DNA of 64,000 bases, taken from NCBI GenBank assembly GCA_002786025.1, contig NHNW01000023.1:248001-312000 (forward strand). Direction: 5' to 3'. This document shows positions 35,603 to 63,139 of this stretch, piece by piece (within the stretch, counting starts at the first letter, position 1; each line of letters begins with the position of its first letter). The notes below the pieces were generated by a model. It was not told the origin of the DNA, searched no databases, and was given only the letters and a program-made list of their open reading frames with translations. A program made the translations under genes and the position numbers. Source of the DNA: Zasmidium citrigriseum. Its lineage: Eukaryota > Ascomycota > Dothideomycetes > Mycosphaerellales > Mycosphaerellaceae.

Positions 35603-36691
35603 ATGGCAGCGGCAGCAGGAGCAGCAAAGCAGGTCATCCGGCGGGCACAATTATATGGTAAGTTCAAATCAACAACAATTTATCCAACGAAGCAAGAAAC
35701 CCCGACGAAAGGATGATCGATTTCACCTTGTCAACAAAACAAGACTCCCATCTCCTAACTAACAACCCCCCTCACAGTCCCGGGCTCCAGCATGCGCTTC
35801 CTCGAAAAATCCCGCTCAATCCCCGCAATCGACAGCATCTGCTACGACCTCGAAGACAGCGTAACGCCCTCCAAGAAACCCGAAGGCCGCTCCAACGTCC
35901 TGCAAATCCTCAACCGCTCTCGCGCGGAGGGAATCCGGGAACAAGCCGTGCGGATCAACGCCGTGGACTCCGGGTACGCATTGGACGACCTCACTTCCAT
36001 CCTGAAAGGCGAGAACTTGGACTGCATCGTCGTGCCCAAGGTCGATGCGCCGAAAGATCTCCATTTCGTCACGGATGTGCTCAGGCAGATGTTGCCGGAA
36101 CGCCACAGCCCCGGAAGTTCGAACCCCATCAAAATCGTCGCCTTGGTCGAATCCGCCCGCTCCGTCATGGATCTAAATGCAATCTGCAAAGCCAGTCCCT
36201 ATTTATCCGGCCTAACCTTCGCAGCCGAAGACTTCGCCATGGACCTCTCCATAACCCGAACCCCCTCCCTGCAAGAATTCCTCTACGCCCGCAGCGCCAT
36301 CGTCGCCGCAGCCCGGGCGCACAACCTCCCCTCAACAATCGACCTCGTCACAACCTCTTTCCGGGGCGAAGAAGGCAAAGCCACGCTTCGCGAAGAAAGC
36401 GAGAACGGGAAGCGGTTCGGGTTTAATGGGAAGCAGTGCATTCATCCGGATCAAGTGCCGCTCGTGCAAGAGGTTTTCTCGCCGGGGGAGAAAGAGGCGG
36501 AGTGGGCGGTTAGGGTGGTGCTTTGTGATCGGAAAGCTGATGAGCAGGGACGGGGGGCGTGGACGCTGGATGGGAAGATGATTGATGTGCCTGTGGTGGG
36601 GAAGGCGAAGGCTATTGTGGCGAGGGCGGAGGTTTGTGGGTTTGATGTGCAGGCGTTGATGGAGAAATTCAAAGACGAAGAGCCTCAATAA
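35603..36691 (+). CDS. HpcH/HpaI aldolase / citrate-lyase-beta-like (CitE/CLYBL) enzyme
   Basis: Two exons, 35603-35657 and 35778-36691 (intron 35658-35777, 120 bp, the longest in the window), give 322 residues. The fold signature is clear: YVPGSSMRFLEKS at the exon junction, SICYDLEDSV (metal-site region), VRINAVDSG, CIVVPKVDAP, ALVESARSVMDLN (metal-binding Glu), LTFAAEDFAMDLSI and the C-terminal GFNGKQCIHPDQVPLV. The family cleaves or forms C-C bonds in acyl-CoA or keto acids, for example citramalyl-CoA or malyl-CoA, often in mitochondria. The N-terminus (MAAAAGAAKQVIRRAQLY) is Ala/Arg-rich and may be a targeting peptide. It is divergent from the PKS. Whether the two are linked is open. Confidence 0.9.
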
Positions 36692-36742: not shown

Positions 36743-37846
36743 TTAGTACCCCCTCCCCCGATCCACAACATTAATCAACCTCTCCCCCTTCTCCCTTCTA
36801 ACAAGATTCTCCTCCAGCACCTTAAACGTCCTCTCCGTATAACTCTGCCCCACACCACTAACATGCGGCGTAACAATAACATTCTCCATCCCCCAAAGTT
36901 CACTATCACTCGGCAGCGGCTCCGGATCCGTAACATCCAGCGCCGCACCACTCAACCTCCCATCCTTGAGAGCCTCAATCAGCGCCGGCTGATCGATAAT
37001 CGGCCCCCGTGCAATATTCGTAACAAAAGCCGGTCTCTTGCCCCGATCACTCAACGCGTCAAATTCCTCCGTGCTGAGGAAATGTCGAGTTTGGTCCGTC
37101 AGCGGCACGGACACGACCAACCAATCGAGGTTCTGCTTGAGGAAATGTATCCTGCTCTCCTTATCCAACCCACTATACCACTCCCCCGGAATCGTCCCCT
37201 CAGGATCCCCCGTCCCAGGCACAATAAACCCCTTATCCCGTCTCTTCTCCTCGCTATCCTTCGGCGTCGCCGTAAAAGCCACAACCTCCATGCCCATCGC
37301 CTTGGCAACCCGTCCGACTTGTCGTCCAATACTCCCATAGCCCAGAATCCCGATCCGTCGACCGACCATGTCACGTAAGTTGTGGAAATCCGTCTTTTCG
37401 GAATCTTTCTTGCCCCATTTCCTCGCCTTCTGAAGCTCATATAGTTGTTTATACTTATGACTCGCAACCAGGCCGGTCATGATAACCCACTCTGCAATCT
37501 GCGGTCCATGGATCCCCGAGCTCGTCGTGATAGTAACATCCGTGTCTGTATACAACGGCTGCTTTTGCATCTGATTACTCCCCGCGCTCGTCAAATGCAC
37601 GAGCTCGAGATCAGGGACATCGGAGGGATGTTGCGGGAATGTGAAGAGTGTGCAGAGGATGGTGGCTTTGTTCCATAGCGAGGAGGGGACTTGTTTGCGG
37701 AGCTCGTGGATGTCGCGGGTCGAGGTCGTTTCGATATAGGAGATTTCGAGGGCCGGGAAGCGTTGCTGGAGGTGGGCGATGATGGCTTTAGGTTCGGGCC
37801 AGGGGAGTGTGCAGAGGAGGTGGTCTTTTGCTGGTCCGCCGCCCAT
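36743..37846 (-). CDS. D-isomer-specific 2-hydroxyacid dehydrogenase
   Basis: A single exon of 367 residues from ATG 37846. The NAD(P) loop is GILGYGSIGRQVGRVAKAMG. The catalytic Arg sits in NIARGPIID, the Glu in DVTDPEPLP and the His in TPHVSG, so the R-E-H triad is complete. These enzymes interconvert D-2-hydroxyacids and 2-oxoacids (glyoxylate/hydroxypyruvate reductase and related). An insertion of about 35 residues between the Rossmann strands (RRDKGFIVPGTGDPEGTIP) is typical of a fungal subgroup. It converges on the CitE-like gene with only 51 bp between the stops. The cofactor preference was not determined. Confidence 0.92.
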   Translation of the reverse strand: MGGGPAKDHLLCTLPWPEPKAIIAHLQQRFPALEISYIETTSTRDIHELRKQVPSSLWNKATILCTLFTFPQHPSDVPDLELVHLTSAGSNQMQKQPLYTDTDVTITTSSGIHGPQIAEWVIMTGLVASHKYKQLYELQKARKWGKKDSEKTDFHNLRDMVGRRIGILGYGSIGRQVGRVAKAMGMEVVAFTATPKDSEEKRRDKGFIVPGTGDPEGTIPGEWYSGLDKESRIHFLKQNLDWLVVSVPLTDQTRHFLSTEEFDALSDRGKRPAFVTNIARGPIIDQPALIEALKDGRLSGAALDVTDPEPLPSDSELWGMENVIVTPHVSGVGQSYTERTFKVLEENLVRREKGERLINVVDRGRGY

Positions 37847-38377
37847 TGTGGTGAGTTGCTTGAGGGGAGGTGAGGTTGCTGTGAGTGAGAGCAGTTCAGG
37901 TGAGAGGGATTGAGGAGAGAGACAGCAAGGAAAGAATGGAGCAATCCTCACCAAGAATCACGAGCTGCAGCTACAGATGAGCTATGACGACGAGATGGAG
38001 GCCGGCACCTCTGCCCGTGTTGGGCCTTTGATAGGCGAAGGCGTGAAGAAGTCGGGGTTTATCCTCACTTCGATTACTAATGCAGCTTTGACTTTCAGAC
38101 GATAGAATCAACAACAGTACAAGTTCCATTTCTGCCTGCTATTTTACAGCGAGTGCATGCCTGGTTATTCGGCAAGACTCTCACAGGACGCAATTCCGTC
38201 CGTGAGCTACAAAGCATTGCTCATCTCCAGTCGCTTTCGGAAACTCCTCCGTTCGACTTCAACCCATGCTTAACCAAGTCCAATCCCTCACTCATAGACG
38301 TTCGTACGCGGAAAACGACGTCGAGAATGGTCGATACTCCATTCGCCAGCCACTAACTCCTATACCCGAGATGTTCC
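37847..38377. other. Intergenic region
   Basis: It holds the 5' flank of the dehydrogenase and the 3' flank of the PWWP gene. I see no gene or repeat. Confidence 0.5.
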
Positions 38378-46853: not shown

Positions 46854-47492
46854 GGAGGCTCAGGATCGGTCTTGAGGGCGTGCAAGGTCTTTCTGAATGG
46901 ATCCGGGAGACTTCTGGCGTTGTAGAGTTCTCCTTGAGCAGCAGCCTTCCCTTGCGGTTTGATTTTATGTACTCATTCCATATTCAAACTTGGGGTTCGC
47001 CCTCATGATTGCCTTCCAGCTCTCAGTCATAGACCCGTGTTGGAAGTGGGTGTTGCCACAAACGCTCACGAAGACAACTGTTGGACCGTTGCCTAATCGA
47101 CGAGGCTGAGTTGACGTCAGGCTGCCACCAGTACTAGTGGCAACTTGCATCTCGCAGGACTAATGAGTATTAACAGGGGAGACTGACTTGCAAGCACCAA
47201 TTGTGCTGAGTGTTGTTGATGGCAGATGAGTTCTCCAGTTTACAGCATTCGCTACGAGAGATGGCGTGAGTCGTCCCACTCGGCGATGTCGTTCCGTACC
47301 TCGCGGATCTTTCTCCGCCGACTCCGCTTCAAGACCGGGACAGCAGAGGCCGAACACATTGCCGCGTCTGTCAAGTGATCAATGTCCTGTTCGAAACATT
47401 AAGCACCTATCCTTCGAAGTTCTCGACCAACGACTGCACCAAACGTCTTCCCTAGAGGCTTGATTAAGAGCATTTCAAGACAACCGCTCAAC
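46854..47492. promoter_or_regulatory. Upstream region of the aldolase-reductase gene
   Basis: There is no other gene. It contains CCG-N7-CGG at 47294-47306 and a direct repeat CTCCG-N4-CTCCG at 47313-47326, the half-site that also recurs in the other promoters of the 47-61 kb cluster. Confidence 0.4.
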
Positions 47493-49493
47493 ATGCCAGG
47501 AATCACAACAACGCCCTCACAACCCGCCGTCCCACCAGGCATCTGGTGCCCTGTGATCTCCCTCTACAAAGATACACCTAGACAAGAAATCGACCTCGAA
47601 GCCTCCTACACCTACTTCACACACCTAATCCGCGGCGGCGTTAACGGCCTCGTCCTCCAAGGCTCCACAGCCGAAGCCGCACTCCTCTCCCCTCAAGAAA
47701 GAATTGACATCACGCGGACCGCTCGTAAAGCAGCCGTAGATCTCGGAGTTCCGGACTTTCCTTTAGCTGCCGGAATCAGTGGTCAATCGACCAATGAGAC
47801 CTTGAGGTTGGTGGATGATGCGGCTGCCGCTGGGGCGGATTTTGGATTGTTGCTGCCGCCCAGTTATTGGCCGAAGGCGATTAGCAACGAGGCTTTGGTG
47901 GAGTTTTATAGGGAGGTAGCGGGCCATTCAAGGATTCCGATTATTGCGTATAATGTGAGTGCCGCTCTATGCCAACTTTTGCTCGATTGCTAACGAATCG
48001 TTCAGTTCCCAGGCGTGACATCTGGCATCGATCTGGGAGTCGACATCCTCTCGCAAATCGCCACACATCCAAACATCGTGGGCACGAAACTCACATGTGC
48101 GAATGCTGGCAAAGTCACCTGCCTAACAGCCCGCTTCTCACCATCGCAATTCAGCGTCTTCGCCGGACAGTCAGATTGGCTTCTCCCCTGCCTAATCGGA
48201 GGAGGTATTGGTTGCGTGACTGGAATCGGCAACGTCTTTCCCAAGTCGGTATCCAAGCTCTACTCCCTATGGCAAGAAGGCAGGATCGAGGAGGCAAAGA
48301 AGCTGCAAGGCCAAGTAGCCCTAGCAGAAGCTGCCTGCAAGAAAGGTCTCGCGGCGACGAAGTACGGAACGGCCTATTTTGCTGGGCCTCTTGCTGGACT
48401 TTCGAATCATGCATCTTTTCATCCGAGGAAACCGTATAAGCCGGCTTCGAAGGAGCTGCAGCAGTCGACTGTTGATACAATGCAGCATCTTGCTGAGCTG
48501 GAACGGTCTCTTCCGGATAAAATCTCTCGGCCGCCGAAGATCACTAAAGAGGTGAATGGAACGAACGGTACTCATACCACTGAGCTTCGCTCACACTTCA
48601 CACTCAATACCGGAGCAAAGATCCCAGCCATTGGTTTTGGAACCTGGAAAGCAGCACCTGGAGACGCCGCAAAAGCCGTCCAAGCCGCTTTCGATGCCGG
48701 GTATCGCCACTTTGATTGTGCTCCGCTGTATTACAACGAGGCTGAGATTGGCGAAGTATTCAAGAAAGCCCCTATCCCTCGGTCAGACTTCTTCGTGACC
48801 ACCAAGCTGTGGTCCTCAGACCACCAACGGGCAGAACAGGCGTTGGATAAGTCCCTCCGAGATCTGGATCTGGATTATGTGGATCTCTATTTGATGCACT
48901 GGCCGGTGACTCTAAGTTCAGATACTGGTGCCGAGTACGGCAAGGAAAATCGCAAAGTCCACGTCCAAGGTTGGGATTTCCGAGATACCTGGCGTGAGAT
49001 GGAGAAGCTGTTGGATACCGGCAAAGTTCGTGCCATCGGAGTTGCCAACTTCTCCACGGTGAATCTGGCCAAGTTGCTGGAGACTGCGAAAGTCGTACCC
49101 GCGGTCAACCAGACAGAGATCCAACCACTGCTACCGCAAGACAAGCTCTTCGACTATTGCTCATCCAAGGAAATTCATCAGACCGCCTTCGGTCCACTTG
49201 GCGGAACTGAAAGTACTCTGCATGAAGATCCTGTAATTGTTGACATCGCGAAGAAGAGAGGCGTGGCTACCGGCAATGTGATGCTGAGCTGGGGTATTGC
49301 AAAAGGCTGGAGTGTTATACCGAAGAGCGTCAACCCCAAGCGAATAGCCTCGAACCTGGAGGACAACTTTCTGCCAACTGTAGACGAGATGCGGCAGATC
49401 GACGAATTGGCCAAGAAAGGTGGCAAGCGGTTCAACAGGCCGGATTGGGGTACCACGATCTTTCACGATGATGTAGATGCGGGAATAGTCTAG
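47493..49493 (+). CDS. Fusion: DHDPS/KDG-type aldolase + aldo-keto reductase
   Basis: Two exons, 47493-47954 and 48006-49493, give 649 residues. Residues 1-325 are a DapA-superfamily class I aldolase: GGVNGLVLQGSTAEAALLS, Tyr153 in IPIIAYN (spliced to FPGVTSG) and the Schiff-base Lys182 in IVGTKLTCANAGK. After a linker (about 326-350, KITKEVNGTNGTHTT) residues 351-649 form a complete aldo-keto reductase: IPAIGFGTWKAAPGD, tetrad Asp391, Tyr396, Lys421 in VTTKLWSS and His452 in LYLMHWP, then IPKSVNPKRI. The linker lies in one uninterrupted exon. In fungal D-galacturonate catabolism separate enzymes of exactly these families (GaaC/LGA1 aldolase, GaaD/GLD1 reductase) act in sequence: a 2-keto-3-deoxy sugar acid is split to pyruvate and an aldehyde, which is then reduced. 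The fusion suggests the same two-step chemistry; the substrate is not known. Confidence 0.9.
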
Positions 49494-49515
49494 ATCCATG
49501 TAGTCACGTATTTTT

Positions 49516-51493
49516 TCATTGCATGAACCCGAATTGCGAGTCCGGAAATGTGAAGTCTCCAAAGTCAGCGTATAGTAGATCATCCGGTAGTCCGTTCGCC
49601 AGATGCAGATCGAACGTCGACGGCATAGGAACGTCTCCGGCCTTTGTTGCGAAGTCTCTCGCGGCAGCATATTCTCCATTCCCGAATGGACTTTCCGTAA
49701 GAACACTTTCCATACCAAGCGCAGCGGTGCATTCGTTGAGCTTCCTCATGAGCCCTGCAGTCACTCTAGAAATAGGATGTGTCGACATGACAGGCGTTCT
49801 GGCAAAGACTGCCAATGCAGCACTGACCAGTCGAAAGTCCTCTTCGACAATGACATTCAGTTGCTCGCGGTACTTTAGACATATCTCCAGTAAGAAGTGA
49901 CCAGCGAAGGAGATCATGATATGGAAGTAGGCGGGCATGCCGACGATGTGTAATCGAAATGCGTCGTTTTCGAGAATCATGGTGAAGATTGTGACAGCGG
50001 CTTCTCGAGCTGAAGTGGCAGCGGACAGGAAATGAGGCGGTATAGGGTCTGTCTTGAGCCCTCGAAAGACGTGATGGCCGAGATATAGCTTGCTGAACTG
50101 GAAGTGCATCGTGAGTCCAGCGAGAGGGAATGATCCGATGTATTGATCTGGTTCTGCTCGGGTTAGCAGAGTGAAAAGTGCTGTCCACGTGTATCGACCT
50201 ACCAAACATCGGCGACCATCTTGAAAACCACTGATCGAGCTCACGAGAAAAGTGAGAAAGCTGCACGACGGAGGCCTTTCCTAGGGGCTTGCTTTGCTCG
50301 TTCCCGAACACATCCTTGATCTGACCCATGATGAAGAGCAACAATACTTGTGACATGAGCCGTGTATCTTGACTGGGCATGGAGCTTTCGCCCACAACGA
50401 AAAGCTCTCTGCTTTCGATGGCATCTTTCTCCGGTCTCAAGATGCAGTCCCGGTTGTGAAGAATGGACAAATGCTGGTCGCAAACGTAGAGAAGATACCA
50501 GAGTCGGATCCTGTCTCTAGCCTGCTGATATTGGTGGGTCGCGGACTCGGTTGTGTCTGCTAGCAGATACTCCTCGGTAAGCACGTAGAAGTATCGATGT
50601 AGCCGGTGATCTGCTGCTCTGCGTATTGCTTCAGATAGAAGAATTCTTGATGCGTCCGGTAGCCAGAATGCTCCAATGCATAACGCACGTATAAACTCGA
50701 TATCTCGTTTCTCGAACAGTGACTCCGAGACCAGGCGTCGATACTCTTGGTTGCAAACCTCAAAACACTCTCGGCTTTCAGAGTCGTGGAAGGCAGCAAC
50801 CGCGCACATTGAGGCCAGCAATGTAGGCGAAGTTTGCCTTACTTGCTTCAGATCTTGATACTGGCTGGCAATACCGTAGAGAAAGCGGTCCAGATGCGTC
50901 AAGTACCTGGTGACCAGCATCTCGGCGGTTTCCAGTGCAATGAGCCCTCTGCCAACCAAATCTGACTGCTCGCCTGTCTTCCTACGAGCCCTTTGCGGAC
51001 TCAATATAACGCCATGGGGAGATGTTTCTTGTCGAGCGCTGTTCAGATACGCATCTATCGGTGCCTGCGCGGTCGAGGGAGATTCTGGTGGCGAAAGCTC
51101 GCACGAGATACCGTCCGGTCCTTCTTCATCGTTGGCCAATGCACCCCGTCCGCTCTCGACTGCATGGTCCTTGTTTGACAGTAACGTAGGCGGCGCCTCA
51201 AGGCCAAGGTGCTGGCAGAGCCTGTCCAACGTCGAATGGAGACTGATCACATCCTTCCCAAGCAGCCCAACTTGCTTGTGGTCGGCCATTGGGTGCCTTT
51301 GGGCGGTATGTAAGACACAATGCGTTCCTCGTCGCTGGCAGCGTAGACATGGCGGTTCCGAGTTGACAGGCATGTCGCATTTGATCTTTTGCTTCCGACA
51401 TTCTGTACAGGCTGCGGAGAGTCGCTTGGGTTCGGGTCGGTCGTCGTCCAGCCCTGGTACTTCGGTTCTCTTGCGTTTCGTAGACGCTGACAT
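49516..51493 (-). CDS. Zn2Cys6 transcription factor, likely cluster regulator
   Basis: Two exons, 51493-50203 and 50153-49516 (49-bp intron, phase 1), give 642 residues. Basic KRKR lies near the N-terminus. The zinc cluster is CTECRKQKIKC then CLRCQRRGTHC, with the longer loop DMPVNSEPP, at about 29-59. A helix (LGKDVISLHSTLDRLCQHLG) follows as a possible dimer coil. The middle region (TLLASMCAVAAFHDSESREC, ARDRIRLWYLLYVCDQHLSI) is the fungal-specific regulatory domain. The C-terminus is acidic and aromatic (DDLLYADFGDFTFPD), as in activators. It converges on the aldolase-reductase gene with only 22 bp between the stops and lies within the catabolic cluster, so it is the obvious candidate regulator. 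Confidence 0.9.
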
Positions 51494-51730
51494 GTTCGCT
51501 ATCTCGATGCATTCGTCTAGGACATGTATGGGCTGAGACTTGATGTTGATAGAAGGTGAAGTAGTGAAGTGAAAAGGTGCAAGTGCAGTGTCAAAGGCCG
51601 CCGGTCTCCACCTCGCCTAGCCCGAGGATCGGCAGATTTTAGTCCGTCACATGGCCTCGCGCGGAAAAAGATCAGGAGAGACTGAGTGCTGCGAACATCT
51701 AATCTATTTCTATGTACTGTTGCAATCTTT

Positions 51731-53284
51731 TCAAAGTCGTGCCCGTGGCTGCCATTTTATCCATGGATGAGTCTCTGAACTCCGTATCAGCGGTTCAAGC
51801 ATTGCCGTGTTGACCATCCCTGGATGTGCGTCGTCGATGTCTGTAATACCGCTCAACTTCATCGACGTCTCGAGCTCATCTTTCAATATCTGAATCATGT
51901 GCTCGACACCCTCTTGTCCATAGCCTAGGGCGTATAGCCACGGCCGACCGATGCCGACCGAGGTAGCTCCCAGCGCAGTGGCTTTCAAGATGTCGGTACC
52001 TCGAGTGAAGCCACCATCTACATATACTTCCAAGCGATCAAAGACTTCAGGGCATGACTTATGTAGCTCCAACAGGGTGATTATAGCCGGCTGTGTCGTG
52101 TCGAGCGATCGTCCTCCGTGATTGCTGAGCATGATGCCGTCAACGCCGTACTCCACGGCTTTGCGAGCATCGCCAGCGGTCTGTACGCCCTTCAAGACCA
52201 AAGGTAACTCAGAGACTCTCTTCACCCACGCCAGATCTTTCCAGGTCAGCGTCGTGTCGATGTACTTCGCCATCACTCGTCCGAGACCTCCACCTTTCCG
52301 ATCGTTCGTTGCAGCCGCGCCGCTGATTGCTGCTGCCACTTTTTCTGCCGCAATGCGTTCATCGGCTTCTCGCTTGCCGGACACAGGTGCATCTACTGTG
52401 ACGAAGACGCCTTTGATACCAAGTTCTTTGGCATGTCGCAGGAGCTCTTCGGTCTTCGATCGATCTGAGTTGACGTAGAGTTGTAGGAAGAATGGCTGGT
52501 TGGGTCGACCAGCAGCTACGATGTCTGCGAGTGGATACGAGGCGTTGCTTGATATCTGGGCAGTGTTAGAACTCGATTTCTCAACCTCGTGTCAAGGCAC
52601 TTACCACCATAGCAATGCCTTCCTGTCCACATGCTCTTGCAACCGCAAGCTCGCCTTCCGGATGCGCCAACTTAGCCATAGCCGCAGGACTGAAGAAAAA
52701 AGGGGCACTGGACTCGCACCCAAGTATCCGCCGCCTCATTTTGGCCTCTTTCACATTCCGTAGTACCCGTGGTCGAAGAAGTAGTTTCCGGTTGCACGTC
52801 AGATTTGCTTGATGTGATACGAGATCGGTCGCTGCAGATGAGTAGAAGGCGTAAGCTTTGGCGGTATATGTCTGCCTCGCCACATCCTCGAAATCATGCA
52901 CAGATATGAGGCTGTAGAGGTCCGGTTTTGAGGGCTTCGTGAGGACAGTATTGGCTTGCTCGATTGACTGCTCCTCCTGTTGAGGGAGGGTATCTGGATC
53001 GATGGAGCCCATGATCTGTTCCGCTGAAAGTGCTTTGACGATGCCAGGTGAGTGTACTTCTTCGAATGCCGATGTAGCATCGCGGCCGGCATACTTATAT
53101 ATCACTGGTTCTGATCAGCACAAGAGTCTTGACCGTGGTCTGATTTTCGTTGTTGCCACCGACCAGCAGCTCCACCAGGGTGTTCAAACGCCGACATGTC
53201 GTAGACTTGGCCGTGGACAACGATCCATACATCCCCAGCCTTATTGTGCTGACCCACTTCTTGGTAAGATATCGTCTTGTTCAT
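51731..53284 (-). CDS. Flavocytochrome b2-type L-2-hydroxyacid dehydrogenase
   Basis: Three exons, 53284-53164, 53104-52605 and 52555-51731, give 481 residues. The N-terminal cytochrome b5 domain has heme ligands His35 (EHPGG) and His58 (EEVHSPG), joined across the first splice. The FMN domain carries FYSSAATD (Tyr), QLYVNSD (Tyr), VTVDAPVSGKRE (Asp), LKGVQTAGDA (Lys), LSNHGGRSLD (catalytic His and Arg) and YVDGGFTRGTD. Known members oxidise L-lactate, L-mandelate or other L-2-hydroxyacids and pass electrons to cytochrome c. The usual mitochondrial presequence is absent: the protein starts right at the b5 domain, so a cytosolic or peroxisomal form is possible (C-terminal QPRARL is PTS1-like only loosely). 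It is divergent from the kinase-reductase fusion, and its substrate is presumably an acid-sugar intermediate. Confidence 0.92.
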
Positions 53285-53649
53285 TTTTCGGCCAAAACGA
53301 TGGATTTCGAGCTAAAGGTGCACGCAAAGATGCCTGTGGAAGCTCTGCAAGCATTGCGGCCGCCTTGAGTCTCATTCTTGCGACAACAGACCTTCGCATT
53401 GCTTTCGCCATGGCACGGCAATCTCGCCGATGGTGGTGAGGTGGGACCGGAGGCTGACGTTGCTCGGAGAAGTGCCTCCGTACAACCTCGGAGGGGGCCA
53501 CCGAGTTCATCGGCAAATGATCTCCAGGACAGGGCTGGTACAGTACCTCTCACGTGTCAACGCAAGATATGGATGACATAGCTAGCATCGTCATGCTGGA
53601 CAGAGAGAGGCATTGGGATGCCATTGAGACCGAATAGAAACGAATTGAA
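53285..53649. promoter_or_regulatory. Bidirectional promoter with CCTCCG-N8-CGGAGG inverted repeat
   Basis: This 365-bp interval separates the divergent dehydrogenase and kinase-reductase genes. At 53476-53495 it contains CCTCCG, eight bases, then CGGAGG, a perfect everted CCG/CGG pair of the kind bound by Zn2Cys6 dimers. A related CTCCG-N9-CGGAG lies in the other divergent promoter of the cluster, at 58956-58974. Confidence 0.5.
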
Positions 53650-56130
53650 ATGGAGAAAGGAGACAACAACGCGGTCGTGTCGAAGCAAGAGCTTCTTTCG
53701 TCACTGCCCCGTGCGCCAGCCTCGAGACGAGTCACTCCACAACAACTTTCACAACAACCCGTCGTCGTCGTCCTCGACGATGATCCCACAGGAACGCAAA
53801 CATGTCACGATATCAATGTGTTGACTGTCTGGGACCAGGCCGTCCTGATCGAGGAGTTCGAATCAGGCTGCATTGGATTCTTCATCCTCACCAATTCACG
53901 CGCATTACCTCCCGTTGAGGCCCGCGAACTCATTCGAACGATATGCTCAGCGGTCAAGACTGCAGCCGCGAAGGCTGGGAAAGAGTTCGAGACTGTGTTG
54001 CGGGGAGACTCGACGCTGCGTGGGCACTTCCCTGATGAGCCCGAGGCTGCTGAAGAGGTGCTGGGAGAGGCAGATATCTGGATACTGGCTCCGTTCTTCG
54101 AGCAAGGCGGGAGGTTGACCATCAATGATGTGCATTATGTTGCGGATCCCAGTGGACAATTGATACCAGCTGCGCAGACGCCATTCGCAAGAGATGCTAC
54201 GTTTGGCTACACAAAGTCGAACCTGCGTGAATACGTACAGGAGAAATCGAAAGGTAGCATAGGTCCGGATCGTATTCAATCGGTGTCTCTTGAAGACATT
54301 CGGCAAGGTGGGCCGGACAAAGTTGCTGAGAAGCTGATCTCATTCGCGCGGCGCTCTGTGGTTGTTGTAAATGCTGTCGTGACAGCCGACATGGAGGTCT
54401 TCGTCCATGGGCTTCTTGAAGCTCAGTCCAAGGGCAGAAAGTTCCTCTATCGCACCGGAGCGGCATTCGTATCGACAAGGCTCGGGATTGAACAGATTCC
54501 GCCCCTGGGACCAAAGGATTTTAGTATGGATCTCTCGCCTTCCGCTCCTGGTGGCTTGGTCATTGCTGGCTCTTACGTGCCAAAAACCACGGCTCAGCTG
54601 GAGTCGCTCGTCGCAGGTCGAGGTGGCAAGCTGAAGAAGATCGAGATCGATGTGAGCGCTTTGCTAGAGTCACCACATTCCGCCCATCAAACGATGCTTG
54701 ACGCGGCCAACGATGCTGGCGTTCATATCACCAACGGCGAAGACGTCCTGCTTATGACCAGTCGCAAGCTGATCACCGGAAGCGACGAGCTAAGCAGCCT
54801 GAAGATCGGAAGCGTTGTAGCAGAGGCTCTCGTCTCTTTCCTCCGTTTCCTGATAGCACGACCTCGATACATCATTGCAAAGGGAGGCATCACAAGTTCC
54901 GATGCTGCAACCAAGGGACTCCTGTTCAAGCGGGCTAAAATCTGCGGTCAAGCAGCGGCGGGTGTGCCTCTGTGGCGATGCTCTGAGAACTCCTGCAAGT
55001 ATCCGGACATAACCTATGTCGTCTTTCCGGGCAATGTTGGCGACAACGATACACTTCTTGATTTGGTCGCCGGCTGGGCCAAGCCAGAGTCATCTACCGA
55101 GGCGGTACGCCCTCCCATGCAATATCAGAGACTGGGAAACAGCGGTCTTAAGGTCTCACGGCTCATCTTGGGATGCATGACATTTGGAAACCCGGAATGG
55201 GAGGGAAGTCCTTGGGTTCTTCCAGAAGCCGAAGCATTACCTCTGCTCAAGAAGGCCTACGACATGGGCATCAATACTTGGGAGACCGCCAACACGTATT
55301 CGAACGGGCAGTCGGAGAAAATCATTGGCAAAGCATTGACGACGTACAAGATACCGCGTAGCAAGGTTGTGATCATGACCAAGCTTTATTACCCTGTGCT
55401 CGAAGATCAACCAAACAGCAGACCGCATCCAGCTACCAACGATGGGCCATTGGTAAATCAAATGGGACTGAGTCGAAGACATATATTTGAAGCGGTGGCA
55501 GGCTCCCTGCGCCGTCTCGGTACATCTTACATAGATGTTCTACAGTTGCACCGACTCGACCTCGACACGAGCTCTGAAGAGGTCATGCGGGCCTTGGATG
55601 ACCTCGTCAAAATGGGCAGAGTGCACTACATCGGTGCCTCCAGCATGTACTGCTGGCAGTTTGCCAGATTACAATACACGGCCATGATGAACGGCTGGAC
55701 TCAATTTACGAGCATGTCTGGACTGTACAATTTGCTCTATCGCGAAGAAGAGCGAGAGATGATTCCCTTCTGTAATGCGGAAGGTGTTGGTCTCATCCCG
55801 TGGTCACCTATCGCCAGAGGACTTCTAACGAGACCGTGGTCTGAGCAGAGCGATCGAAGCAAGCAAGATGCGAAGACGAAGAAATGGTTCCAAGGGGATC
55901 AGAATCCACGTATTGTTCAGCGGGTCGAGAGACTGGCCAAAGTGAAGGGTTGCTCGATGTCCGATATTGCTCTTTCATGGCTGCTTCACAAGGGTGCTTG
56001 TCCGATTGTTGGCCTGAACAGCATTGAACGTATCGAGGCTGCGTCTCGAGCACTAGCAGTGAGTCTTACTGAAGAAGAGATCGCAGATTTGGAGGGGTTG
56101 TACAGGCCACTGGAAGTTCAAGCCATGTAG
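53650..56130 (+). CDS. Fusion: four-carbon acid-sugar kinase (OtnK/DUF1537) + aldo-keto reductase
   Basis: A single exon of 826 residues from ATG 53650. Residues 38-480 are a full DUF1537 kinase: VVVVLDDDPTGTQT, FILTNSRALP, VLRGDSTLRGHFPDE, DVHYV, YRTGAAFVS, and the nucleotide-binding half with IIAKGGITSSD and VVFPGNVGDNDTL. Bacterial relatives phosphorylate 3-oxo-tetronates. A short linker (PESSTEAVRPP) leads to an internal Met490, where a complete aldo-keto reductase begins: MQYQRLGNSGLKVSRLILG, NTYSNGQSEKIIG (Tyr550), VIMTKLYYP (Lys578), LQLHRLD (His634), GASSMYCWQF, IPWSPIARGLLTRP. The residue at the catalytic Asp position is Glu545 (TWETAN). This reductase belongs to a different subfamily from the one fused to the aldolase. 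Downstream in the same direction is the DenD-like gene. Confidence 0.9.
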   Translation: MEKGDNNAVVSKQELLSSLPRAPASRRVTPQQLSQQPVVVVLDDDPTGTQTCHDINVLTVWDQAVLIEEFESGCIGFFILTNSRALPPVEARELIRTICSAVKTAAAKAGKEFETVLRGDSTLRGHFPDEPEAAEEVLGEADIWILAPFFEQGGRLTINDVHYVADPSGQLIPAAQTPFARDATFGYTKSNLREYVQEKSKGSIGPDRIQSVSLEDIRQGGPDKVAEKLISFARRSVVVVNAVVTADMEVFVHGLLEAQSKGRKFLYRTGAAFVSTRLGIEQIPPLGPKDFSMDLSPSAPGGLVIAGSYVPKTTAQLESLVAGRGGKLKKIEIDVSALLESPHSAHQTMLDAANDAGVHITNGEDVLLMTSRKLITGSDELSSLKIGSVVAEALVSFLRFLIARPRYIIAKGGITSSDAATKGLLFKRAKICGQAAAGVPLWRCSENSCKYPDITYVVFPGNVGDNDTLLDLVAGWAKPESSTEAVRPPMQYQRLGNSGLKVSRLILGCMTFGNPEWEGSPWVLPEAEALPLLKKAYDMGINTWETANTYSNGQSEKIIGKALTTYKIPRSKVVIMTKLYYPVLEDQPNSRPHPATNDGPLVNQMGLSRRHIFEAVAGSLRRLGTSYIDVLQLHRLDLDTSSEEVMRALDDLVKMGRVHYIGASSMYCWQFARLQYTAMMNGWTQFTSMSGLYNLLYREEEREMIPFCNAEGVGLIPWSPIARGLLTRPWSEQSDRSKQDAKTKKWFQGDQNPRIVQRVERLAKVKGCSMSDIALSWLLHKGACPIVGLNSIERIEAASRALAVSLTEEEIADLEGLYRPLEVQAM

Positions 56131-56476
56131 AAAAGCACGACTTGCCATCAAAAGTTCAAACGACTTCCCACATCTCTCCGAGTTCGACTCTACGAATGAT
56201 CTTTAGCATGATGCCCGCTGCAGAGACTAGCGGCACGGATTCTCCGACTCCGCGGACAGGCCTACTGTAGCAGCCGCTGTCAGCGCCCCGGAAGGCCGTC
56301 TCCGAGGTGCTAGATTGCGGCATTGGACTGTTCCATCACGTGGCCAAGGCTTTATGATATTGGAACATACCCCTTGAAGACACCCGGTCTGGAAGACAGA
56401 ACGAGGAACGAGCAATCATCGGCACGGAGCTTCGACATCAGACAATCTCCAATTCAATAGAGCCTTCAAGACCAAG
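56131..56476. promoter_or_regulatory. Promoter region of the DenD-like gene
   Basis: This interval contains tandem CTCCG half-sites at 56242-56246 and 56248-56252 running into CGG, and another at 56300-56304. These match the half-site in the cluster's two divergent promoters. Confidence 0.4.
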
Positions 56477-57469
56477 ATGGGAGGCACAACCATGTCGCCA
56501 TCCAACATTCTTATTACCGGTGCTGGAGGATTCATCGGTCAGGCTTTGGCAGCCAGCCTTGCACAGGACCCTACGGTTGGCAGCATAGCCTTGACCGACA
56601 TCACCAAACCGACGGTCCCATCGACTTCGAACGGCACGGCTTGTCGTATCACGGCCTTTGCTGCAGACTTGACATCGCCTTCCACATGTGCAGACGTCCT
56701 GGCCACTGACTTCACTCACATCTACCTCCTGCATGGCATCATGTCCGGCGCAGCAGAGGCAAATCTGGATCTGGGTCTCAAAGTCAACATCGACTCGATG
56801 AGATACATCACAGATATCCTACGACAGCAACAACGACCAGTGCCGGTACGGGTAATTTTTCCCTCCAGCCTCGCAGTCTTCGGCCCCGCAAAGGAGAACG
56901 ACGTAGTGACCGAAGGCACAATGCCAATGCCACAATCATCCTATGGAACCGAGAAAGCCATCGTCGAAATGCTGCTAAACGACTTCTCTCGACGAGGTCT
57001 CATCGATGCCAGGATTCTACGTTTGCCAACGATCATCGTTCGACCGGGCAAACCGACTGGAGCGGCGTCTTCGTTCTGCTCTGGTATTATTCGGGAGCCA
57101 CTCAACGGAGAAGTCGCTATTCTGCCTGTCAGGCGGAACTTAAAGCTTTGGGTCTGTTCTGCACGAACGGTGATCAGGAATCTGGTGGCTGCGAAGGACA
57201 TCCCAGAGGCTGAATTTTCTGATCGAAGCCGTGTTGTCAATCTACCCGGGCAGACTGTCACTGTGGAAGAGATGTTGAAAGGGCTTGAACGAGTTGGAGG
57301 TCGGAAAGCTCTTGATTTGGTGCAAGAACAGTATAATGACAAAGTGGCCAACATTGTGGCGTCGTGGCCTGCGGTGTTCGACACTGCTCGAGCGGAGGAG
57401 CTTGGCTTTCAGCCTGCTATTGATTTGGAGCAGACGTTTAGGGATTACGTTGAAGACTACATGCAGTAG
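56477..57469 (+). CDS. D-erythronate dehydrogenase-like (DenD) NAD-dependent SDR
   Basis: A single exon of 330 residues from ATG 56477 (a second ATG at 56492 is also possible). It is an extended short-chain dehydrogenase/epimerase fold: ILITGAGGFIGQALA is the NAD loop, IFPSSLAVFG holds the catalytic Ser, and Tyr156/Lys160 form SYGTEKA. The segments RILRLPTIIVRPGKP, AASSFCSGIIREPLNGE, VNLPGQTVTVEEML and IVASWPAVFD closely follow, as I recall them, bacterial D-erythronate dehydrogenase DenD, which oxidises D-erythronate to a 3-oxo-tetronate. In bacteria that product is the substrate of OtnK after isomerisation. The upstream neighbour here encodes an OtnK-family kinase, so the two genes support each other. 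The alternative is a related uronate or nucleoside-sugar oxidoreductase. Confidence 0.88.
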   Translation: MGGTTMSPSNILITGAGGFIGQALAASLAQDPTVGSIALTDITKPTVPSTSNGTACRITAFAADLTSPSTCADVLATDFTHIYLLHGIMSGAAEANLDLGLKVNIDSMRYITDILRQQQRPVPVRVIFPSSLAVFGPAKENDVVTEGTMPMPQSSYGTEKAIVEMLLNDFSRRGLIDARILRLPTIIVRPGKPTGAASSFCSGIIREPLNGEVAILPVRRNLKLWVCSARTVIRNLVAAKDIPEAEFSDRSRVVNLPGQTVTVEEMLKGLERVGGRKALDLVQEQYNDKVANIVASWPAVFDTARAEELGFQPAIDLEQTFRDYVEDYMQ

Positions 57470-57635
57470 TCTCATACGAATACGTTCAAATACGATTGCG
57501 TCTCCGCGCTCTCTTCAGTCCCTGAATGCTCGCTCTCAACACCTTCCAAGGAGAATACATGAACCACAAGGGATTCGCAAGGGAAAGGCAATGGGTAAAG
57601 CAATGAATGCTCAGTTTTCGTTTCAACTGTTAGCC

Positions 57636-58814
57636 CTACATCTGCTCCAACACCTTCGGATCAAACTCTACGAACTTGATCCCCTGCCTCCAAAACGTAA
57701 ACGCAATACGCACGATTCCGTCACCACCAATCCGTATACTTGGATACGACAACTCGCGATTCAGCTTCTGCTCGCTGTTATTCGTCATACAATACCCGTC
57801 ACCCTCCTCAAGAACCGTATGCCGCCACGACTTTCCATCGTCGTCACTCCACGCCACACATAGCGGTGCTCTCGGTGCACCCCAGAATGCCTCCTTGCCG
57901 GCATGCTTACTAGCCTGGTTCTCGCGAACGTCTCCAGCCTCTGCGATGTCGTCGTAGAGTCCTTCTCGGCGACCTGCTGCGTCGGCTCGGGAGGAGTGGT
58001 TGTACACTGCAAGTACTCGACCAGAAGATAAGACGTCGAAGCAGATTCCGGCGTTTGGGTTTGGGAGACTTGTTGGTTTGGGCTCGGACCAGTCGATTCC
58101 GTTTGGAGAAGTCGATGAGTAGATGTTGTCTGCCCATCGACTGCGGTACAGAGCCAGATAACCCTCGTTCTTGAGCTTTTGGATCTGCATGTGGACGGCG
58201 CCGAAGCTGTTGGCTATGGCTTTTTCGGTCCAGGTCTTGCCTTGATCGTGCGAGATACGGATGGCTGAAATGTCGTCATTGCCGACCCATCGCATTCCTG
58301 GTTCAGAGCGACATTTGAAGGTCGGAATGACCCAGGCTCCATTCTCAAGCATGACGACCGGCTGTCTGATGAAAGTCCCTGGCTCGGGGAAGAGGACCTC
58401 TGGTGTGTTCCAAGTCAATCCACGGTCGGTCGAGATTTGTCGTTTAACCACGGCAGAGTCCTGATCGCCTAGGTGCTGAGACGTGTACATTAGCCACAGC
58501 TCTCCGTTTGGCGTCTGGAGGAGGACCGGGTTCTGTTCACTTCTCGATATGTCGAATGTTGCTCGAGTAGCTTTTGACCAGGAATTCGACCGGGCTTGTC
58601 GTCTCGCGAGGTAGATGCTGATATCTGGCTTGCCTTCTTGCGTTCCGCCGAACCAGGCACAGAGCATATCGCCATTGTCCAGTATCAACAGATTCGACGC
58701 ATGGCATTGCGGTGTCGCCGCTGGGATGAAGCATTCTGAATGTTGAAACGGCTTGTCCGTCTTGGTCAAGACATTATTGTTGAAGTCTGGCGTCGGCTCA
58801 CCGTAGCTTTCCAT
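57636..58814 (-). CDS. BNR/Asp-box (sialidase-fold) protein, cytosolic
   Basis: A single exon of 392 residues from ATG 58814. Asp-box motifs recur as expected for a six-bladed sialidase fold: STDRGLTW, SHDQGKTW and SDDDGKSW, with a weaker SPNGIDW. Other conserved stretches are NLLILDNGDMLCAWFGGTQE, RSEQNPVLLQTPNGELW, FIRQPVVMLENGAWVIPTF and ELSYPSIRIGGDGIVRIAFT. There is no signal peptide or membrane segment, so it should act inside the cell. The family (BNR_2-like) includes glycoside hydrolases and uronate-linked lyases, and most members have no known substrate. It sits between DenD and a sugar transporter with which it shares a divergent promoter, suggesting action on an imported oligosaccharide or glycoside. 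Confidence 0.85.
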   Translation of the reverse strand: MESYGEPTPDFNNNVLTKTDKPFQHSECFIPAATPQCHASNLLILDNGDMLCAWFGGTQEGKPDISIYLARRQARSNSWSKATRATFDISRSEQNPVLLQTPNGELWLMYTSQHLGDQDSAVVKRQISTDRGLTWNTPEVLFPEPGTFIRQPVVMLENGAWVIPTFKCRSEPGMRWVGNDDISAIRISHDQGKTWTEKAIANSFGAVHMQIQKLKNEGYLALYRSRWADNIYSSTSPNGIDWSEPKPTSLPNPNAGICFDVLSSGRVLAVYNHSSRADAAGRREGLYDDIAEAGDVRENQASKHAGKEAFWGAPRAPLCVAWSDDDGKSWRHTVLEEGDGYCMTNNSEQKLNRELSYPSIRIGGDGIVRIAFTFWRQGIKFVEFDPKVLEQM

Positions 58815-59186
58815 GGTGAATCGATGGTACAACCTTCTGACGATGCTCAAGCGCACAGGAAGTGCATCAGTCTTTTTTGGGAACAGGTGAAGTCACACCA
58901 TGGCACCATCTGCCGAACATGTGCCACCCCGGATCCTTATCCGGCGGAAGCTGTTCTCCGACTTTCACTCGGAGCAAGTGCCACCGAGACATTTTGCTCC
59001 TCCCTCGCAGCCTGACTCCGCATTCCCCAGACCCCAGACCCCACGCCACGAGGTGGATGAACGTCGGTCTGTGCGGGCGGTCAACCGGTATATCTCCTCT
59101 TGCTTCCGCTAGGAAAGTCAAGCTGAGCTTGTCCTTCACTCCACATCTCGTCGTTCTTGGCTTCTTGAATACCGATCTTCACGAAT
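58815..59186. promoter_or_regulatory. Bidirectional promoter with CTCCG-N9-CGGAG inverted repeat
   Basis: This is the 372-bp divergent promoter of the BNR protein and the MFS sugar transporter. CTCCG at 58956-58960 and CGGAG at 58970-58974 form a perfect inverted pair around nine bases, like 53476-53495. Confidence 0.5.
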
Positions 59187-61072
59187 ATGGCAGGCGGCAC
59201 CAGCATCTGGGTCAGCAAGGATGCGAAGACTGATCCGCGAGAGATCTTCAATGGACGACTGCTGTTTCTTCTGATAACGGTCGCTTGGGCGGGATGCTTC
59301 TACGGTTTCGACTCTGGAAATATTGGCGGCATCTTGACACTGCCTTCATTCGAGAATGCATTTGGTCTTACCGGACTGTCGCAGGTCGACCTCGACAAGC
59401 GTAGTGTATGTGAAGCCGAAGTCTCAAGCTTATGCCACAGTACTGATGAATCCAGGGTACCATTGCGGCCATGCTCGCTGCAGGCGTGAGTTGATGATCA
59501 CTTCCGTCGTTTCAACCACTGACAAGACGTCCAGGGCTCCGCCGGTGCACTCTGCGCAGCACCAACCTCAGACTACCTCGGCCGCAAGTGGTCCGTCTTC
59601 CTGTGGGGCCTCATCTTCCTCGTTGGCGCGGCGATGCAGATGGTCGCCAACTACGACGTCCTCCTCGCCGGCCGCTTTCTTGGTGGAATGGGCGTAGGCG
59701 CATCATCCATGCTCTCGCCTCAATTTCTTGCAGAGAACTCACCGAAATCTGTTCGTGGCTCGATGACCGCTACCTACAACCTCATGATCATCCTCAGCCT
59801 TGCCTTGGCATTCTGGACCAACTATGGAGTCAGCCTTTGGAAGGGCCATGAGCATGACAATAAGCAATGGAGGACGTCGATGGGGATTCAGCTTATACCC
59901 GGCGCCTTGATGTGTTTGATGATACCATTCGTGCCTGAGACGCCAAGATACCTCATCAACCAGGGAAAGTCGGAACAAGGATTGAAGAACTTGACGAAGC
60001 TCCGGAAGCTACCCGCGGACCATCCATATATCCAAACCGAGTACTCTGAGATCGAGGCTCAGATGAAGTTTGAGCAAGAGGTAAGGCAACATACCTCACT
60101 AGTGCTAGGGCTTTGCTAACTTTCACAGGCTCGTCAAGGCCACAGCTACTTCGTCATCATGAAAGACATCTTCACCAACAGGAGCAACTTCCAACGCTTC
60201 TTTCTGGCCGTTATGCTCTTCCTATTCCACAAGTTCACTGGAACTGACAGCCTCAATTACTATGCCCCGAGCATCTTTGAATTGATTGGGGTCAAGGGTG
60301 GTAGCACTACACTTTTGACAACCGTGAGTACTATCGAAGATTTGGCATTTCCAACTCTGACCATGTACAGGGCGTCTACGGCATCGTCAAACTCGTCACA
60401 ACAATCTTCTACGTCGCCTATCTCGTCGACCGAGTCGGACGGCGTCTGCCACTCCTCGTTGGTGCAACCATCCAAGCCACAGCAATGCTGTATCTCGCAC
60501 TCTACATCCGCTTCGCCCCTGGCGGCAACTCAAGCACCGACACCGTTGGCGGTACTCCAGCAGGTGGCATCGTCGGGATCGTAATGATCTACTTGTATGC
60601 TTTCGGTTGGTCGTTCGGTCACTCCGTCGCTTGCTACGTCGTTGCAGCAGAGATTTTCCCGACTAGAATCAGATCTTTCTGCATGTCGTTTTGTTTCTTT
60701 GTTAATTGGATTGTGGATTATGGGATTACGAAGGCTACGCCTGTTATGTTGACTGAGATGGTGAGTAATACCCGTGATCATTGATGTCGGAGGAGGCTAA
60801 CGAATGAATAGGGCTGGGGCACATTCCTACTCTACGCAATGCTCACATATGCTGGAGTCGTCTTCATCTTCTTCTGTCTCCCAGAGATGAAGGGCCGCTC
60901 GATCGAGAGCATGGACGATCTGTTCCAGCGCCCGCTGTGGACTATGTGGAAGCATGCGTACCCAACCGAAGACGAGAAGGTCAGGCGTGATGTACAAGAG
61001 AACATCAAGCTGGAACGGGGTGAGTCCATCGCCGAGAAGGAGAGCTCGACGGTACATGTAGAGAAGGTTTGA
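59187..61072 (+). CDS. MFS sugar transporter (hexose/quinate-permease type)
   Basis: Six exons, 59187-59405, 59456-59485, 59535-60080, 60129-60323, 60371-60760 and 60812-61072, all phase 0, give 546 residues. The second exon is a 30-bp microexon. Sugar-porter signatures are FYGFDSGNIGGILTLPSFE, DYLGRKWSVF (loop 2-3), GRFLGGMGVGASSM, PETPRYLINQGK (after helix 6), VDRVGRRLPLLVG (loop 8-9) and the PET-like LPEMKGRSIESMDDLF after helix 12. About twelve helices lie between cytosolic ends. It shares a promoter with the BNR gene and closes the cluster, so it probably imports the cluster's substrate (a sugar, sugar acid or small glycoside). Confidence 0.92.
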
Positions 61073-61820: not shown

Positions 61821-62860
61821 ATGTTCTTCCCAAAGTTCCAGCTTTTCCTCGTCTCTTGCCTCTCTATGGCTCACGCCTTCCCAAACCCGGTGACAGAATT
61901 GAGAGGCGTGGGCAAGGAACCCAAGGGTCACGAGTTTCGCCACCCCAGAACGACCGACAGTATGCTTCAGCTACGCTCGTGTAGCGCTTATTTCTGACCT
62001 TGTTCCTCAGGTCGAGCTCCATGCCCAGGACTAAACGCGATGGCGAATCACAACTACCTCCCTCGTAGCGGACGTAATATAAGCTATCCCGAACTCAGAG
62101 ACGCCGCCCGAGACGCGTACGGCTACGTACCAGACACATATGAGATTTTTCACAGCCTCGCGACCCAGACCTTTGCCATCTCCACGACGAAAGATCCCTC
62201 TGTGACCTTCAACCTGGAAGACCTAAAGTCCCACAGAACCATCGAGCAGGACGGATCGCTGTCTCGCAATGATTGCGGCGTCAACGGCGATGACTTGCAT
62301 TTCGACCCAACGATCTGGGATCCTGTTGCGAAGAATCTTGGGTTAACGTTACCGGTAGATGCGCAGCATGGATACATCTCGAACAAAACCGCAGCCGATG
62401 CGTACGTTGCACGTCAAATCGCTGCGAAGAAGGCGAACCCAAAATTTGTCGATGACTGCTTCCAAAGAAATGGCACCCAGGGCACGACGAGTCTGTATCT
62501 CGCTACGCTGTGGGACTTTGGCGCGAAGGCGGTGCCAAAGAAATGGATCGAACCTTTCTTTGGTAAGTGTTCAATACCGTTACAGTGTCGAAGACTGCTG
62601 ACATGGGCACAGTCGAGCAGCGGATTCCATACAAGGAAGGCTACACTCCTCAGCAGCCCAAGGATACGAACTACATTCATGATTTTGTTGTCTCGATCAA
62701 CGATCTGGTCAACCAAAATGGAGGTCTCGAGTATTTCGACGCTGATACATGTTCCTTTGACTTTGATCAATCAAACAGGGGCAAGGGGCATATCCATGCA
62801 ACTAATGATACGAAAGCCATTACAGGAGAATGTAGCTGGTCTAGATGCGCGCAATGCTGA
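61821..62860 (+). CDS. Secreted heme-thiolate peroxidase (chloroperoxidase/unspecific peroxygenase family)
   Basis: Three exons, 61821-61959, 62011-62562 and 62613-62860, give 312 residues. The first 20 residues (MFFPKFQLFLVSCLSMAHAF) are a signal peptide. Splicing produces SRAPCPGLNAMANHNYLPRS, the family's PCP segment with the proximal heme ligand Cys51. The conserved E-x-D-x-S motif is EQDGSLSRND at 125-134 (Gln where characterised enzymes usually have His or Gly). A C-terminal FFVEQRIPYKEGYTP follows the second splice. Known members use H2O2 to halogenate or oxygenate organic substrates outside the cell. It lies beyond the sugar cluster with its own promoter and is probably not part of it. 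Confidence 0.88.
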
Positions 62861-63139
62861 CTTGGTATAATAAAGTTATCAACCTCGTTTCGTTGTCTTC
62901 CCAAAACGTCGGAGCACTACTGAGTACAATGACAAGCAATTCGTCTTCCTTGGCCTCATGTTGTTGCGAATCGCTGGTGGATTGTCCTAACCTTTTGAAA
63001 AAGAAAAGAGTAATGTAAGGAAATGGTCGGGCTGGTCTTTTGTGAAGATCCGGAGTTATGTCGTGTGAGGCCATTCAGTGCTGGTATGCTTGAAGAATGT
63101 GGTCACCGTCGCGCCAAAGCCAGCCACGCTGATCGAGCC
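62861..63139. other. Intergenic region between convergent genes
   Basis: 3' flanks only; no feature is recognised. Confidence 0.45.

Follow-up and report, generated by a model that had tools for sequence, protein, structure and literature searches.

Sialic acids are catabolised by way of a sialidase, the NanA lyase and the NanQ anomerase, and glucarate by way of an aldolase, tartronate semialdehyde reductase and glycerate kinase. For four-carbon sugar acids, bacteria have a D-threonate module, made up of the kinase DtnK (NF047819) and PdxA2 (NF002891), and a D-erythronate/L-threonate pathway with DenD or LtnD, OtnI, OtnK and OtnC (annotated in Azoarcus, L041). A bacterial route in which a class II aldolase acts after the 2-oxo-tetronate kinase is described in the available part of PMC12540250, where a three-step 2-OtnK/2-OtnC pathway (Guo 2024) is cited; Arabidopsis LTD is considered here together with it. 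In fungi, according to the available part of PMC6353982, D-galacturonate is degraded through the aldolase Lga1/GaaC and the reductase Gld1/GaaD. We looked at a cluster of seven genes in a window of 64,000 nucleotides of Zasmidium citrigriseum DNA (assembly GCA_002786025.1, contig NHNW01000023.1, positions 248,001 to 312,000 of the forward strand), the cluster spanning window positions 47493-61072, with the start codon of its first gene and the stop codon of its last as the limits. We propose, with a probability of roughly 0.43, that it represents the first recognised catabolic route for 3-deoxy-lyxo-2-heptulosaric acid (Dha), in which a hydrolase of sialidase fold would be followed by an aldolase acting on an ulosarate and a reductase acting on threuronate, with pyruvate and D-threonate as the products. 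Bacteria and fungi would each have put this route together on their own, for the most part with different enzymes, only the BNR protein being closely homologous, and the route would supply the D-threonate enzymes of these bacteria with their substrate in nature.

The seven proteins were read directly from the sequence and spliced by hand; all are intact, all nine introns are GT-AG, and a Pfam scan of the spliced proteins agrees with every family named in the first-pass annotation. NCBIfam curated cut-offs were applied to four of the seven. The cluster opens with a DapA-family aldolase fused to an aldo-keto reductase, here AKRa (47493-49493, + strand, 649 aa, one intron at 47955-48005; Pfam DHDPS and Aldo_ket_red), followed by a Zn2Cys6 transcription factor, the proposed pathway regulator (49516-51493, - strand, 642 aa, one intron; Zn_clus), and by FCB2, a flavocytochrome b2-like protein (51731-53284, - strand, 481 aa, two introns; Cyt-b5 and FMN_dh). 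FCB2 is divergent, across 365 bases, from an intronless fusion of a DUF1537 kinase with a second aldo-keto reductase, AKRb (53650-56130, + strand, 826 aa; SBD_N, NBD_C and Aldo_ket_red). DenD, of the D-erythronate dehydrogenase family (56477-57469, + strand, 330 aa; Epimerase, NF043036), precedes a second divergent pair separated by 372 bases, the BNR protein with its predicted GH33 sialidase fold (57636-58814, - strand, 392 aa; BNR_2) and a major facilitator superfamily (MFS) transporter, the proposed importer (59187-61072, + strand, 546 aa, six exons; Sugar_tr).

This gene set resembles each of the described systems in part. Like the D-threonate module, it combines a DUF1537 kinase with an oxidoreductase partner and points to tetronate chemistry, but its kinase half reaches 51.9 of the 450 bits required of a D-threonate kinase, and Pfam finds no PdxA in the cluster. 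It shares a DenD family member with the D-erythronate/L-threonate pathway, whereas OtnI and OtnC families are absent from it, its kinase is not OtnK by the curated cut-off, and the aldolase and the BNR protein come in addition. The closer relatives of the kinase half include kinases that stand beside class II aldolases, which recalls 2-OtnK and LTD, a likeness judged from related bacterial kinases; unlike that system, as the available part of PMC12540250 presents it, the fungal kinase has an AKR as its fusion partner in place of LtnD and a class II aldolase, and the cluster lacks 2-OtnC. The parallel with galacturonate catabolism drawn in the first-pass annotation stands as regards a pyruvate-releasing aldolase followed by an aldehyde reductase, which are fused here, but falls short upstream: Pfam finds no galactonate dehydratase family among the seven genes, compared with the pathway in the available part of PMC6353982. 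Common to this cluster and sialic acid catabolism are a GH33-fold enzyme and a lyase of the DapA family, to which 31 of the 79 bacterial loci described below add a YhcH/NanQ-family gene, although a C4-acid kinase takes the place of the amino-sugar enzymes. Finally, the proposed route would, as in glucarate breakdown, turn a diacid into pyruvate and an aldehyde acid, then reduce and phosphorylate, yet it would be one carbon longer and use other enzyme families and a sialidase-like front end. Neither a Dha catabolic pathway nor a fungal cluster of this make-up was found in the open-access literature searched.

To weigh the linkage of these genes in fungi, we used lists of relatives of the kinase fusion (120), the aldolase fusion (102) and the BNR protein (120), in which absence from a list is uninformative. 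Of the 120 relatives listed for the kinase fusion, 72 have all three domains, and 26 of the 102 listed for the aldolase fusion have both DHDPS and Aldo_ket_red; the two fusions noticed in the first-pass annotation are thus intact here and recur in other genomes. Full-length relatives of the kinase-AKR protein occur in Zasmidium, Cercospora, Pseudocercospora, Cryphonectria, Microdochium, Aspergillus, Penicillium and Exophiala, and the aldolase-AKR fusion in Zasmidium, Pseudocercospora, Cercospora, Septoria, Hortaea and Microdochium; Penicillium rubens is among the species with the kinase-AKR fusion. When contigs were matched between the three lists by equal length, at least 34 carried two or three of the families (24 from a named fungus, 16 of those Aspergillus). 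Ten of them are shorter than 100 kb and 16 measure 100-500 kb, the remaining eight exceeding 500 kb and being little evidence of linkage. Among the matches listed, all three families share eight contigs: four (3051083, 54571, 116865 and 2949242) have aldolase-AKR, kinase-AKR and BNR, the kinase-AKR of 2949242 being a partial model, three are Aspergillus contigs with an AKR-MFS protein, and the last (3893024) combines a kinase with an aldolase, AKR being absent. In the aldolase list, the Aspergillus rows owe their match to the AKRa half alone; these are AKR-MFS proteins, which could be true fusions or merged gene models, and many of their contigs contain the kinase fusion as well.

In Zasmidium cellare, BNR, kinase and aldolase bear the locus tags 010228, 010230 and 010233, with gaps in the numbering that would accommodate DenD, FCB2 and the regulator in the order of the window. 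A further contig, L042 (NYXK01000071.1), was deposited in a deltaproteobacterial metagenome-assembled genome and is fungal, with intron-bearing genes 36-67% identical by segment to the spliced proteins of the window. Within 14 kb it carries MFS, AKRa, BNR, DapA, Zn2Cys6 regulator, AKRb and DenD genes; DapA and AKRa are separate genes, AKRb is without the kinase, and the gene order differs. This arrangement indicates that the fusions are lineage traits and that neither the kinase nor FCB2 belongs to every such cluster. Co-localisation, the synteny check attached to the first-pass annotation, is therefore conserved in other fungi, as seen in the shared contigs, the Z. cellare tags and L042; it upholds the idea of one acid-sugar catabolic pathway, and we are nearly certain that the seven genes belong together in this way.

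The BNR protein gave access to bacterial counterparts. Two peptide patterns from the fungal sequences retrieved 452 BNR relatives, and the best 80, minus L042, make up the 79 bacterial loci considered here, which are not independent events because many come from close relatives (Pectobacterium, Burkholderiales, Enterobacterales) and two, L117 and L118, from one strain. The bacterial BNR proteins are about 50% identical to the fungal one; Bacillus paralicheniformis (L062) is among the hosts. On three of four plasmids read, the neighbours of BNR are an aldolase of the DapA family or an iron-containing alcohol dehydrogenase (Fe-ADH), a DUF1537 kinase, PdxA, a short-chain dehydrogenase/reductase (SDR) and transporters; the fourth, of Pantoea (L039), has a symporter, YhcH and SDR only. 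Within about 10 kb of BNR, a DapA-family gene is found in 62 of the 79 loci, Fe-ADH in 62, DUF1537 or PdxA in 70, SDR in 65, an SSS symporter in 63, a DeoR regulator in 55 and the YhcH family in 31, and DapA, Fe-ADH and DUF1537 or PdxA occur together with BNR in 58. As a small control, DapA and Fe-ADH were both absent from five loci that had been retrieved by way of their kinase or DenD gene. Several Pantoea loci (L039, L096, L103, L107, L113, L120, L121) differ: they have BNR, symporter and SDR, in some cases with a YhcH-family gene, and their fetched flanks gave no aldolase or kinase match. The set is complete in Pantoea allii (L117, L118).

In many of these operons the bacterial enzymes point to D-threonate. 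In Pectobacterium L055 the kinase exceeds the D-threonate kinase cut-off (612 of 450 bits) and PdxA that for D-threonate 4-phosphate dehydrogenase (683 of 583), and the aldolase is under all curated aldolase cut-offs, its best score being 195.5 of 206 (DapA). Among the open reading frames kept and clustered by the caller, others being lost to overlapping frames, there were 57 kinases and 39 separate PdxA proteins; with E-value limits near the curated cut-offs, 28 of the 57 and 27 of the 39 reach D-threonate level. A looser limit, run to check OtnK, gave 29 kinases matching D-threonate kinase and none of the 57 at OtnK level. Kinase and PdxA form one chain in Caballeronia L037, and PdxA models are matched at E 1e-103 by 14 of the 57 kinase frames; such single chains may be seen as a parallel to the fungal kinase-AKR fusion. 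A citrate-type transporter (L068) and a tricarboxylate-type binding protein (L040), in one locus each, would suit a small diacid. Taken together, the matching operons suggest that Dha is the food of the pathway.

Turning to the individual fungal enzymes, the aldolase-AKRa fusion finds its best solved structure in 3qfe (E 2.1e-83), and its aldolase half also matches N-acetylneuraminate lyase models of NCBIfam at 63 and 74 bits, far under their cut-offs. The DapA half is proposed to be an ulosarate aldolase and AKRa an aldehyde-acid reductase. With 338.1 bits, DenD is above the 325 set by the curated model of D-erythronate dehydrogenase (NF043036), in line with the first-pass annotation, which had also called the kinase OtnK-type; that name had to be given up, the kinase half scoring 23.7 bits against a cut-off of 350 and being closer to another DUF1537 kinase group. 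OiaK (3-oxo-isoapionate kinase) was rejected too, since the fungal kinase is not among its matches and four bacterial kinases tested reach at most 72.6 of 700 bits. The kinase half is 36-39% identical to seven plasmid matches and 37-38% identical to bacterial kinases whose loci carry a GarR-type or NAD(P)-dependent oxidoreductase; four such loci were read, two having a class II aldolase and the other two GarR and a gluconate symporter. It is proposed as a putative 2-oxo-tetronate 4-kinase, with AKRb as an oxidoreductase. A PF07005 search found no second DUF1537 gene in the Zasmidium genome, and four PF01116 (class II aldolase family) genes lie elsewhere in it (two on contig C1, one each on C67 and C116), one or more of which might provide the missing 2-OtnC-type step. 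In AKRb the motif NTWDT reads NTWET; the 74 kinase-AKR relatives showing the motif divide into 34 with Glu and 40 with Asp, which we take to be the usual catalytic Asp of the AKR tetrad, and the role of AKRb may differ between lineages.

FCB2 has cytochrome b5 and FMN_dh domains in one chain, both over the Pfam cut-off, as in flavocytochrome b2, and is perhaps an (S)-2-hydroxy acid dehydrogenase with D-threonate as a possible substrate. No hydrophobic N-terminal segment was seen by eye in the BNR protein, whose predicted structure is a GH33 sialidase propeller with high Z-scores to sialidases and to a fungal KDNase. The single sequence had no match in a PDB sequence search; a profile of 54 BNR sequences gave weak matches, mostly to sialidases. 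Several Arg residues and Tyr357 are invariant across these 54. BNR is proposed to be a cytosolic Dha-glycoside hydrolase.

A 3-deoxy-2-ulosonate that on cleavage gives pyruvate together with an aldehyde reducible to D-threonate has to be a seven-carbon 2-keto-3-deoxy diacid. The stereochemical procedure used here recovers, as expected, D-arabinose from 3-deoxy-D-manno-octulosonic acid (Kdo) and L-glyceraldehyde from 2-keto-3-deoxy-L-galactonate. D-threonate is (2S,3R), and an enzyme of L-lactate type could convert it into (3R)-2-oxo-tetronate, the product that DenD would form from D-erythronate; FCB2, DenD and the kinase would be joined through this compound. In the pathway that we envisage, the MFS protein would import a small Dha compound, and the cytosolic BNR would release Dha from a glycoside or open its ring. 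The DapA half would then split Dha into pyruvate and D-threuronate (2,3-dihydroxy-4-oxobutanoate), which AKRa would reduce to D-threonate. In bacteria, D-threonate kinase and PdxA2 would carry this on to dihydroxyacetone phosphate and CO2, while in the fungus FCB2 may oxidise D-threonate, a 2S acid of the same side as L-lactate, to 2-oxo-tetronate for phosphorylation by the DUF1537 half; DenD and AKRb would act in some way on the same C4 acids. A tetronate intermediate is probable, and for Dha as the substrate we put the odds at even; it was not among the substrates named in the first-pass annotation. In plants Dha is known only from rhamnogalacturonan II (RG-II), according to the available part of PMC12168206, which remarks on its kinship to sialic acid; the RG-II side chains are described in the available part of PMC12282258.

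Several observations weigh against this pathway. Its substrate and all its reactions are deduced from what was observed, namely gene content, families, conserved linkage, the bacterial operon and a predicted sialidase fold. Of the eight stereoisomers that the C7 diacid has at C4-C6, two would yield D-threonate, a chance match of one in four, so that the agreement with Dha is supportive and not decisive. The kinase and FCB2 were not found in 21 kb of L042, whose assembly gave AKR matches only and no DUF1537, and L042 keeps DenD and AKRb in a cluster without them. A cytosolic glycosidase would be odd if free Dha were imported, and the catalytic residues, in sialidases an arginine triad with Tyr and Asp, could not be aligned between BNR and a solved sialidase. 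On the bacterial side, 29 of 57 kinases and 12 of 39 PdxA proteins are below D-threonate level, and because about half of the kinases miss it our confidence in Dha was slightly lowered. Eight of the 79 loci have none of aldolase, Fe-ADH and kinase/PdxA, and no DenD or FCB2 match lies within 10 kb of BNR in any. The fungal kinase is hardly alike to the bacterial operon kinases, the aldolases share about 28% identity, a YhcH protein tested is below the NanQ cut-off (103 of 160), and the usual SSS symporter, like the Nramp-like transporter of two loci, is little informative on a diacid.

The cluster could instead serve a tetronate pathway, in which D-erythronate (and D-threonate) would be imported and converge, through oxidation by DenD and FCB2, on a single 2-oxo acid that the kinase would phosphorylate, the aldolase-reductase and BNR forming a side branch. 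DenD speaks for it by exceeding the D-erythronate dehydrogenase cut-off, as does the kinase half by its likeness to kinases of oxidoreductase loci, half of those read with a class II aldolase as in the pathway outlined in the available part of PMC12540250, and the four PF01116 genes could provide the last step. The aldolase, AKRa and the sialidase-fold enzyme would however be left without work, though they are linked to the kinase in fungi; aldolase, reductase and DUF1537 or PdxA are linked to BNR in bacteria, and the L042 cluster has no kinase. We hold this explanation to be unlikely. Its narrower form in the first-pass annotation, an OtnK-DenD pathway as in bacteria, lost ground with the lack of any 2-oxo-tetronate isomerase or decarboxylase family among the seven genes in Pfam, and was further weakened by the nearness of the kinase to the other DUF1537 group and by the lack of a DenD match within 10 kb of BNR in the 79 bacterial loci.

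A different 3-deoxy-2-ulosonic acid (Kdo, ketodeoxynononic acid or sialic acid) might also be the substrate, BNR acting as a sialidase-type enzyme, the lyase giving pyruvate and a sugar, and the reductase a polyol. The GH33 fold with its high Z-scores and the N-acetylneuraminate lyase matches, far below cut-off as they are, fit this picture, but it leaves unexplained why the bacterial operons have D-threonate kinase and D-threonate 4-phosphate dehydrogenase and the fungal cluster its C4-acid enzymes, and we hold it to be distinctly improbable. About as little credit goes to a seven-carbon diacid other than the Dha of RG-II, degraded by the same logic: either C4 epimer with the same C5-C6 configuration yields D-threonate and the bacterial hosts are of many kinds, yet Dha is already known as a sugar of plant walls, and plant tissue is where several of the hosts (Pectobacterium, Dickeya) live. 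We know of no alternative seven-carbon diacid of that configuration. As for a chance adjacency of unrelated metabolic genes, L042 differs in order and is without two genes, and eight of the 34 shared contigs exceed 500 kb; against this stand the shared contigs below 100 kb, the Zasmidium locus tags, L042 itself and the same roles around BNR in bacteria. We rejected this very improbable explanation in view of the conserved linkage in fungi and the bacterial loci.

Sites of the form CGG-N10-CCG, candidate sites for the regulator, lie upstream of DapA-AKR (47281-47296), between FCB2 and the kinase fusion (53465-53480), upstream of DenD (two, at 56231 and 56289, spanning 56231-56304) and between BNR and MFS (58945-58960). 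These five fall in 1,953 intergenic bases of the cluster, in four of its five intergenic regions, against 12 in the rest of the window; none of 2,000 first-order Markov samples reached this count, and the value is about 0.001 for the best of 21 spacings. The motif was first noticed by eye, with statistics afterwards, so the sites are post hoc; CGG-N11-CCG likewise has five sites in these bases, and L042, with three CGG-N10-CCG in 21 kb, gives no support. The motif is a hint only.

The names given to the surroundings of the cluster come from our own reading of the frames. A U-box-like protein and short frames form its left flank, and a haloperoxidase-like gene lies directly to its right (61821-62870, + strand). 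Farther left are polyketide synthase-like frames with ketosynthase, acyltransferase and carrier protein (31424-34587, - strand), accompanied by an MFS-like frame (30401-31321), and a CitE/HpcH-like frame (35759-36691, + strand) that adjoins a D-2-hydroxyacid dehydrogenase-like frame (36743-37957, - strand).

RG-II is a conserved component of the walls of plant cells. If the Dha pathway holds true, Dha would gain a complete catabolic pathway in fungi and bacteria, and the D-threonate enzymes a natural source of their substrate. A function would be found for a widespread cytosolic family currently named neuraminidase or exo-alpha-sialidase, and the fungal cluster and bacterial operons would clearly exemplify how a single pathway can be built two times over from different components, each enzyme being open to a test of its own.

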